From a candidate division SR1 bacterium (lineage in GTDB: Bacteria; Patescibacteriota; Gracilibacteria; Absconditabacterales; Absconditicoccaceae), in NCBI GenBank assembly GCA_026397395.1, contig JAPLUV010000024.1:1-64000 (forward strand): a stretch of 64,000 nucleotides of DNA, read 5' to 3'. Below are positions 1 to 39,823 of this stretch, piece after piece (the stretch's first letter is position 1; each line of letters starts with the position of its first letter). Below the pieces are notes generated by a model that worked only from the letters and a program-made list of their open reading frames with translations, ran no database searches and had not been told where the DNA came from. A program made the position numbers and the translations under genes.

Positions 1-208
1 TATAGGACCTGCCTACCGGCAGGCAGGCTCGAACCTAATTGTTAGATTCGTTCTCTTTGTGAGAGATAGATACATTATCGACTCATCAATTTTATGGTGG
101 GTGATATAGGACCTGCCTACCGGCAGGCAGGCTCGAACCTAATTGTTAGATTCGTTCTCTTTGTGAGAGATAGATACATTATCGACTCATCAATTTTATG
201 GTGGGTGA
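1..208 (-). pseudogene. Two tandem 104-bp partial copies of tRNA-Val
   Basis: Two direct repeats of 104 bp (1-104 and 105-208) lead straight into the intact tRNA-Val. Each copy keeps the CCA end, acceptor strand and start of the T arm, then carries the palindrome CCTGCCTACCGGCAGGCAGG (8-27 and 112-131) inside the T loop region and loses the rest of the tRNA. They cannot fold as full tRNAs. The second copy overlaps the CCA end of the real gene. Confidence 0.8.
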
Positions 209-285: not shown

Positions 286-483
286 CGGTCCCACGGGGAA
301 TCCAATGCGAAGTATAGTCCCGCTTTAGCGGGGAACCCCCAATTACATAGATATATTAACCGTTAGATCGTATAGTTTTTAATCGGTCCCACGGGGAATC
401 CAATGCGAAGCGAAGTCCAGCGAAGCTGGGGAACCCCAATGTTCTACATTGATATATTAACCGTTAGATCGTATAATTTTAAT
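286..483 (-). pseudogene. Two degenerate copies of tRNA-Glu
   Basis: Copies begin at 286 and 384, spaced about 100 bp from each other and from the true gene. Both keep the acceptor and 5' T-arm sequence and the D-arm-like end, but the T-loop to anticodon part is replaced. The replacement contains a short hairpin, CCCGC-ttt-AGCGGG type in the first copy and CCAGC-gaa-GCTGG in the second. Confidence 0.7.
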
Positions 484-3300: not shown

Positions 3301-4218
3301 ATGAATGAATTAATATATAAAGATACCGGGAGCCTGCCTGCCGGTAGGCAGGAAAGGATAGATACATGGCTTGTGAAGCAGTTTCCTTATACAAGGAGCT
3401 TTTTTCATCATATTATCACCAGAGCTGGTATTTTGGTCAATGAAAAGCCCGTAAAAAAGTCTTATCAGCTCAAAAACGATGATAAAGTGAAGGTAGACGA
3501 TCTCCAGAGGTATCTCGGAAGTGAAATCTTGGAAGAAACGCCAAAGATAGATATCCCTATTATTTTGGAGAAAGATGATTATCTCGTCATCAATAAACCC
3601 AAATGAGTCCTTTCTCATCCCAAAAATCTCCGAGAACTCAGCGAACCATCCGTCGTAGGATTTCTCTATCATAGATACAAAGAGTTACCATCAGTCGGAA
3701 ATTTTATTAGAGCGTGATTGTTACATAGATTAGATAAAGAAACAGACGGACTCATGATTATTGCAAAGACAGAAAAATGACTCGCCCATTTCAAAAACCT
3801 CTTCGACGAAAAGACCCTCGCAGAAGAACATGCAGACAAAGAAAAAGTTCAGTTAAAAAAATTTTATAGAGCAACAAGTCATCTCACACTTGAAGGAGAA
3901 AAATTTTTGGATGATATCAAAGAATTCCCATTCACTATCAGCGAACCCGTCATCGCAAAAGTTCCTTTTACTATGGCAAAACTCGGCATTACTAAAATCT
4001 TACACATAAAAAAGTCTGATCAAACCGTCGCGTTGGAGTTGGAAATTTTGACGGGCAGAACGCATCAAATACGTTATCACCTGTCTCATCACGGATTGCC
4101 AATTATCTGAGATTATTTATATGGGAAAGATGAATGAGTGTCTATGCAACTCACGGCATATAAGTTAATGTTTCAAGATCCCGATGGAGAAATGCAGACA
4201 ATAGAAATTTTAAAATAA
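3301..4218 (+). CDS. RluA/RluD-family pseudouridine synthase
   Basis: A 305-residue enzyme that converts rRNA uridines to pseudouridine. An S4 RNA-binding domain (about 18-75) is followed by the catalytic domain with INKPKG (KPxG motif, Gly is UGA), HRLDKETDG with the catalytic Asp near 144, and GRTHQIRYHL near 250. Five glycines are UGA. At codons 11-17 a 20-bp palindrome (3333-3352) is inserted in frame and encodes LPAGRQ just before the S4 domain; this stretch is absent from normal family members. Length and order otherwise fit. Which uridine it modifies cannot be read from the sequence. Confidence 0.88.
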
Positions 4219-12840: not shown

Positions 12841-12903
12841 CCTGCCTGCCGGTAGGCAGGGGCGAATATCATTCGCCCGGGCGTTTACTAAACGCCCCTA
12901 CAA
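12841..12903. repeat. 20-bp palindrome joined to a double-hairpin element
   Basis: CCTGCCTGCCGGTAGGCAGG (12841-12860) runs into a 46-bp element (12858-12903) made of two adjacent hairpins, GGGCGAATatcATTCGCCC and GGGCGTTtactAAACGCCC. The 46-bp element recurs base for base at 39778-39823. Both lie between genes. Confidence 0.9.
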
Positions 12904-25759: not shown

Positions 25760-25814
25760 TGCACCAAAATAATAGATTAAAAGATATAATTATGATAATT
25801 GACGGCATTATACT

Positions 25815-25903
25815 TGGCTCCAAGGAGACTGAACCACGTAGTCCTACGTGGCGGGCTCTTGACCTCGCCCCTATAATTCATCTTGAGCACATTATTGTAT
25901 ACT
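25815..25903 (-). pseudogene. Degenerate copy of the adjacent tRNA-Met
   Basis: Repeats the acceptor and first half of the T arm (ttggctccaaggagact), then has the palindrome ccacgtagtcctacgtgg where the T loop should be, then gacctcgccc and degenerate sequence. Period to the true gene is 89 bp. The same palindrome, with one base changed, is at about 50042-50060. Confidence 0.75.
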
Positions 25904-25977
25904 TGGCTCCAAGGAGACTCGAACTCCTGACCTCGCCCTTATGAGAGGCGCGCTCTAACCACCTGAGCTACAGAGCC
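25904..25977 (-). tRNA. tRNA with anticodon CAT (elongator Met, or Ile2)
   Basis: Acceptor GGCTCTG/TGGAGCC, anticodon stem CGCCT/GGGCG with loop CTCATAA. It lacks the three G-C pairs of an initiator. Met and lysidine-modified Ile tRNAs both carry CAT, and I cannot separate them with certainty. Confidence 0.88.
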
Positions 25978-25983
25978 AAAGAT

Positions 25984-36575: not shown

Positions 36576-36712
36576 TGTGCTAACGATTATCGTATAAAAG
36601 AGAGATAGATAACATCTATCACATCATATGTATGTAATTTTCGCACAAAATCAATTGATTTTTGGTCTGGATTATATAAACATTATCTCGTCGATAGACA
36701 TTTTTTTGTTAG

Positions 36713-36818
36713 GCCCAGATGTACCAAGCTTGCCCAAAACACAAGCGCAGCGAAGTGCTTTTGGAAGCAAGATTGAGCATCCCGCATATGACTGCGGGGA
36801 TGGTAAGGAAATAAATAA
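36713..36818 (+). pseudogene. Degenerate tRNA-Leu 5' copy with hairpins
   Basis: Begins with gcccagatg, the 5' end of the tRNA-Leu 106 bp downstream. It then carries hairpins (aagcgcagcgaagtgctt; atcccgcatatgactgcggggat) instead of the D and anticodon arms. Confidence 0.45.
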
Positions 36819-39777: not shown

Positions 39778-39823
39778 AGGGGCGAATATCATTCGCCCGG
39801 GCGTTTACTAAACGCCCCTACAA
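39778..39823. repeat. Second copy of the 46-bp double hairpin
   Basis: Identical to 12858-12903: GGGCGAATatcATTCGCCC followed by GGGCGTTtactAAACGCCC. It ends four bases before the phosphoesterase start codon. Confidence 0.9.

Follow-up and report, generated by a model that had tools for sequence, protein, structure and literature searches.

Broken tRNA copies in a tRNA cluster at the contig start

The window (the whole 64-kb stretch of DNA analysed here) is the start of a contig in a 1.25-Mb draft genome, hereafter the source genome, of which 409 kb were used. In this genome TGA encodes glycine, as indicated by trxB and other genes that are open only under translation table 25. A tRNA cluster extends from 199 to 2337 on the minus strand, and all tRNA genes, tRNA copies and the nuclease gene located in this section lie on this strand. 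The intact tRNA-Glu(TTC) gene (483-556) is accompanied by two degraded copies, a distal one at 281-378 and a proximal one at 379-478, and hairpin-bearing half-copies also flank tRNA-Val, tRNA-Met and tRNA-Leu within the same 2.3 kb.

Next to intact tRNA-Val(TAC) (199-275) there are two broken copies of the 3' type. Unit 1 (105-208) carries the hairpin CCTGCCTACCGGCAGGCAGG at 112-131, a pure insertion between tRNA positions 60 and 61, while unit 2 (1-104), an exact 104-nt tandem repeat of unit 1, has its 20-nt T-loop hairpin insert at 8-27. Tandem repetition at a period of about 104 nt (window 1-140; L063:1-140; L156) is seen in these Val copies, across a contig break (C10/C30), in the Ala copies of the source genome (105 nt) and in five Ala-type units of another genome (G006 C12:32568-33000).

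Intact tRNA-Met(CAT) (1396-1470) is flanked on both sides. In the downstream copy (1299-1370), the 3' half (tRNA 43-75) is 100% identical, the anticodon arm has given way to a hairpin at 1331-1346 and the 5' half is degenerate; in the upstream copy (1543-1611), it is the 5' half (1-25) that is 100% identical, with a hairpin at 1569-1586 in place of the anticodon arm and a 3' half matching at 22/33 positions. For tRNA-Leu(TAG) (intact gene, 1730-1812), the hairpin TCCCGACTAGTCGGGA stands instead of the anticodon arm in a broken copy at 1845-1895 (hairpin 1851-1866) and exactly replaces this arm (between tRNA positions 27 and 45) in an upstream broken copy at 2177-2230 (hairpin 2183-2198). Between broken and intact tRNA-Leu lies the gene of a solo GIY-YIG nuclease of 82 aa (1900-2148; table 25 ORF with TGA as Gly; PF01541, E 4.8e-15). 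Further into the window, the downstream broken copy of a tRNA-Met/Ile2(CAT) gene (copy, 25790-25865; intact gene, 25903-25978) has a T arm with the hairpin CCACGTAGTCCTACGTGG (25834-25851).

The two tRNA-Glu inserts point to a single insertion

A first-pass annotation of this locus had reported two degraded tRNA-Glu copies beside the intact gene, repeated at about 100 bp and each with its own hairpin in the same place. Both observations are real: the period is 98-101, the copies are 81% identical over 59 nt, and the hairpins, CCCGCTTTAGCGGG at 319-332 and CCAGCGAAGCTGG at 417-429, both lie in T-loop inserts. They also belong to a class of sequence that is above chance, with 26 GC-rich perfect hairpins in the 64-kb window versus 1-7 in shuffled sequence.

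The annotation had further described the part from the T arm to the anticodon as replaced by hairpins. Mapping the junctions base by base revealed that the T arm is instead interrupted: each of the two copies has its T-loop split at an identical point by a 30-nt insert (303-332 and 401-430), and on the tRNA strand this point falls between GGGGTTC and GATTCCCC. The 5' acceptor strand is gone from both copies and the anticodon arm has decayed into AT-rich sequence.

The inserts have in common the tail ACT(TCG/ATA)CTTCGCATTG and differ in the hairpin core, which is changed en bloc (CCAGC-TTC-GCTGG versus CCCGCT-AA-AGCGGG). Two independent insertions, as originally proposed, do not fit with a shared insertion point and a common tail; these features indicate that both hairpins descend from a single insertion event, later duplicated with the core altered as a block. 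When the locus was compared with that of sisters, as the annotation had suggested, here at species level, orthologous Glu copies were found in none of the sampled congeners. The possibility that the insert tail is a phylum-wide element was rejected, since its pattern occurs in 1 of 192 genomes, the source genome itself; a near copy is present in genome G008, at Lys-CTT.

Half-copies in the genus are polar and carry hairpins

The search for partial copies covered the flanking sequence of 298 tRNA genes from 18 genomes. The window's genus contributes 210 of these genes, and 44 of the 210 have a partial copy nearby (controls: 1 for the reversed query, 6 when the flank came from a different tRNA and 0 in antisense). 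Relatives sampled outside the genus have few copies, 9 in 230 tRNAs, so the copy density in the window's genus is unusual. An assembly artefact was rejected, since numerous genomes, that of a named isolate among them, show the same pattern.

The position of a copy determines which end of the tRNA it retains. The 5' end is kept in 27 of the 35 upstream copies and the 3' end in none, whereas among the 29 downstream copies the 3' end is kept in 19 and the 5' end in none (Fisher p 2e-13). Of the two halves of a copy, the outer one, directed away from the intact gene, usually matches that gene at 100% identity, and the inner one, which faces it, is much diverged (e.g., 28/28 versus 23/40); two Leu copies of the source genome, with 22/27 and 20/27, are exceptions.

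Hairpins are present in 54 of the 64 copies. In about 20 copies, representing ten tRNA kinds, the anticodon arm is swapped exactly at the stem base for a hairpin of 14-18 nt; in other copies, the T arm or the D loop bears the hairpin. The T-arm hairpins covary, with three pairs changed on both sides, a score reached by 0 of 500 shuffles. Moreover, sister species carry different hairpins at the same position, both in Leu-TAG (TCCCGACTAGTCGGGA, TCCCGATAGAATCGGGA and TCCGCCTAGGCGGA) and in tRNA-Met (AGCCGGTCAAAACCGGCT, GTCCGGTGAACCGGAC and GTCCGGTTAACCGGAC). Hairpin exchange at preferred tRNA sites, which the annotation had deduced from the Glu pair, is thus supported as an event that occurred many times; independent insertion of the two Glu hairpins is not supported.

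Could these copies result from plain tandem duplication and decay, that is, from unequal exchange with a breakpoint inside the tRNA, selection for the intact copy and hairpins formed by template switching? Any such duplication yields polarity, and plain tandem duplications do occur among the copies (G031 Met, in which the upstream flank is repeated, G002 Arg, and the Ala arrays of the source genome); the 104-nt Val array of the source genome likewise has repeated flanks. However, duplication predicts flank sequence at the break, not a hairpin followed by a degenerate other half; the same hairpin families recur at different tRNAs and in different species; and both the exact anticodon-arm boundaries and the association with a nuclease gene (see below) would be left unexplained. 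We regard this explanation as very unlikely.

It is hardly credible, moreover, that the fold of the broken copies is maintained because they function as tRNA-like RNAs, either as decoys or as regulators. The covarying stems of the replacement hairpins, the frequent retention of D arms and the location of the copies in tRNA operons, on the same strand, would suit such a role; yet every copy is without one acceptor-stem strand, the copies are species-specific and missing at most sister loci, and the hairpin sequences are not conserved.

A solo GIY-YIG nuclease gene lies between broken and intact tRNA

In Patescibacteria and Bacteroidota, solo GIY-YIG genes are frequent, most of them unassigned. 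In the window's genus, 16 such genes (~80 aa) are adjacent to a tRNA gene, all on the tRNA strand, and 15 of them have the intact tRNA on one side and, on the other, a broken copy of the same tRNA, an arrangement that we refer to as a cassette. Three cassette proteins match PF01541 over the curated cut-off, with E values of 3e-11 to 6e-16 and along nearly the whole domain; the protein consists of the catalytic domain only, without a DNA-binding part. The nearest solved structures are those of UPF0213 proteins and of the structure-specific endonuclease SLX1 (a single-sequence structure model, with a pLDDT of 68, was too poor for use). An Rfam scan of the window at gathering scores gives only tRNAs, and a group I intron around the GIY-YIG gene was thus rejected. 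About half of the solo GIY-YIG genes of the source genome are not at tRNAs, and a general tie of such genes to hairpins away from tRNAs was seen in only 2 of 9 cases and is not supported. Most broken copies, including those of tRNA-Glu, are without a nuclease gene.

The nuclease lineages follow tRNA identity, not genome. In the tree of catalytic domains, the tRNA isoacceptor changes 7 times for 8 classes, which is the minimum possible and is attained by 0.0002 of shuffles, while the genome changes 10 times (0.66 of shuffles). For example, the Lys-tRNA nucleases of four species form a single clade in which upstream and downstream positions are mixed. By this tree, the genes have moved between genomes into the homologous site instead of descending with the host, as free-standing homing endonuclease genes do.

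Relatives of the nuclease lie beside tRNA genes in many phyla

Using the alignment of Lys-clade nucleases as query, we scanned 84,980 public species genomes and took the 80 best loci, a set that is drawn with these nucleases and is not a random sample. Of these 80 best relatives, 70 have a tRNA no more than 600 bp away, in most cases no more than 150, and 69 of the 70 share its orientation. A broken copy is present on the far side in 45 of the 68 relatives that have a co-oriented tRNA within 250 bp. The polarity seen in the genus recurs: where the gene is upstream and the copy extends to an end of the tRNA, this is the 5' end in all 20 cases, and where the gene is downstream, it is the 3' end in 20 out of 20. 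The tRNA-linked carriers among these best relatives include 36 Patescibacteria and 20 Bacteroidota, in addition to Verrucomicrobiota, Acidobacteriota, Omnitrophica and one alphaproteobacterium.

Two tRNA-Pro loci illustrate the architecture outside Patescibacteria. In a member of the Bacteroidetes (L248), the nuclease gene starts two bases after the tRNA and ends just before TGCG-[TCCCGATTCAATCGGGA]-tRNA 46-76. In the isolate Sediminicola luteus HQA918 (L236), the broken copy has hairpins in the D-loop and in the anticodon arm. Carriage by phages was rejected, as 50,697 phage records gave no match and none of the 69 loci of relatives on viral contigs has a tRNA.

GC-rich hairpins occur throughout the source genome

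Another explanation is that mobile palindromes of the RPE or REP type prefer tRNA arms: a redundant, tandem-duplicated tRNA would be invaded from a genome-wide pool of hairpins, with the nucleases as incidental settlers. In its favour, GC-rich hairpins are found genome-wide with a bias for a first C (93 C-first versus 19 G-first in 409 kb). Hairpins of the CCTGCC family occur as pure insertions in copies of the Val, Leu and Gly tRNAs and also inside an RluA-like gene, and the absence of a nuclease gene from most copies points in the same direction. What this explanation does not account for is the flanking of 15 of the 16 nuclease genes by one broken and one intact copy, their co-orientation, the tRNA-specific nuclease lineages and the exact arm-for-arm replacement. 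The CCTGCC family is found in tRNA copies and in a coding ORF, as might be expected of dispersed RPE-type elements, whereas GTCCGG hairpins are mostly tRNA-linked (3 of 16 loci examined are without a tRNA), and the RAYT-like Y1 transposases of the source genome are flanked by other palindromes. We therefore consider mobile palindromes an unlikely cause of the half-copies. Half-copy polarity and the nuclease gene, both absent from the first-pass annotation, explain more than a palindrome preference for tRNAs.

The C-first bias holds near and far from tRNAs. In the RluA-like ORF (3301-4218, TGA as Gly), the palindrome CCTGCCTGCCGGTAGGCAGG lies at 3333-3352, near the N-terminus, and translates as SLPAGRQ.

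A homing-like cassette as the probable origin of the half-copies

Taken as a whole, the Glu copies are rather probably scars left by a mobile cassette that acts in a homing-like way, invading tRNA genes and keeping one intact copy. The active cassette measures ~250-350 bp and consists of a solo single-domain GIY-YIG gene (~75-95 aa, on the tRNA strand) and a partial tRNA duplication, in one of two layouts: 5' half of the tRNA, hairpin, nuclease gene and intact tRNA, or intact tRNA, nuclease gene, hairpin and 3' half of the tRNA. One arm of the broken copy is replaced or split by a new hairpin, free in sequence and with pairing kept; this is mostly the anticodon arm, in other cases the T arm or the D loop. 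As one intact tRNA always survives, insertion of the cassette would be harmless.

We infer from this architecture that the nuclease may cut an arm of a naive tRNA allele or recognise the arm as a DNA hairpin, its relatives including the structure-specific SLX1, and that repair after the cut would copy the cassette in. The outer half of the broken copy would then be the recipient's, which would be why it is identical to the intact tRNA, and the inner half and the hairpin would arrive with the cassette. The swapped hairpin would spoil the target and make the broken copy uncuttable. The intact tRNA, though the cassette lies in the tRNA gene with an arm-swapped half-copy, retains the presumed target, so immunity must rest either on its new flank, through which we suppose it to be spared, or on a factor not seen here. 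Those copies of Glu, Val, Met and Ala that have no nuclease gene beside them would be leftovers of such cassettes, some of them amplified by tandem duplication.

It is also conceivable, although we lean against it, that the single-domain GIY-YIG nuclease reads DNA hairpins by shape (folded tRNA arms), cuts at the stem base and exchanges hairpins. Shape reading would explain both the exact arm-for-arm swaps and the hairpins that vary freely in sequence yet still pair; some of the hairpin load seen across the genomes of Patescibacteria and Bacteroidota might have the same cause. If true, this would be a new mode of DNA movement and the cassette a categorically new mobile element.

The cassette would give a large subset of solo GIY-YIG genes a life style, that of selfish tRNA-homing units sparing the intact copy, and would account for the numerous broken tRNA copies and odd hairpins. 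It also makes a precise prediction, namely that cleavage falls at the base of either the anticodon arm or the T arm. We know of no homing-like unit smaller than ~250 bp. In the mainly open literature that our search covered, we found no description of the combination of nuclease, hairpin half-copy and intact tRNA.

Comparison with known systems

Among tested analogues, SegB of phage T6 is the closest to the cassettes. SegB, a GIY-YIG enzyme, cleaves inside tRNA genes (motif RAWTSGAAC) and drives tandem amplification of tRNA segments (PMC13096335). This motif matches the T-loop. As with SegB and the other free-standing GIY-YIG homing endonucleases of T-even phages (Seg), the cassette nuclease gene lies beside tRNA genes; cleavage inside tRNA genes and tandem tRNA amplification are features of SegB, whereas for the cassette we only infer cleavage. 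Unlike Seg genes, the cassettes are in bacterial chromosomes, encode the catalytic domain only, form lineages specific for a tRNA kind and include a broken tRNA copy in which a hairpin has taken the place of an arm.

Prophages and islands that integrate in tRNA genes likewise insert in a tRNA gene, restore one intact gene and leave a fragment over. They differ from the cassette, which is 250-350 bp long without an integrase (the only ORF in the unit is the ~80-aa GIY-YIG gene), has an arm replaced by a hairpin, and has 5'-half copies as commonly as 3'-half copies.

Short hairpins that look mobile and lie in structured RNA genes as well as in coding genes are also a feature of Rickettsia palindromic elements and of the double-hairpin or palindromic repeats of organelle genomes. 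In the cassettes, by contrast, the hairpins go together with a nuclease gene and with half-copies that are polar. With REP/RAYT systems (Y1 transposase) the cassettes share short GC palindromes and a nearby single-domain nuclease. The source genome has three Y1 genes, two of them RAYT-like, and these carry their own palindromes, CACCCGGGTG and CTCCCCGGGG, rather than the tRNA hairpins. A Y1 transposase/REP origin of the tRNA hairpins was rejected because both RAYT-like genes are flanked by other palindromes. Around one of them (L094, C37:13711) there are ~8 copies of CACCCGGGTG, and around the other (L095, C29:9690) CTCCCCGGGG palindromes.

Two further repeated structures were noted. A tandem hairpin pair, GGGCGAATATCATTCGCCC-GGGCGTTTACTAAACGCCC, is identical at 12860-12897 and 39780-39817. 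Moreover, a structured element of ~95 nt (CCAAGCTTGCCCAAAA...TTTTGGAAGCAAGCTTGAGCATCCCGCA...TGCGGG) lies at 36712-36805 of the window and at L064:4335-4440, where it follows the initial 9 nt of a copy of tRNA-Leu; its position is upstream of Leu-CAA and Leu-TAA.
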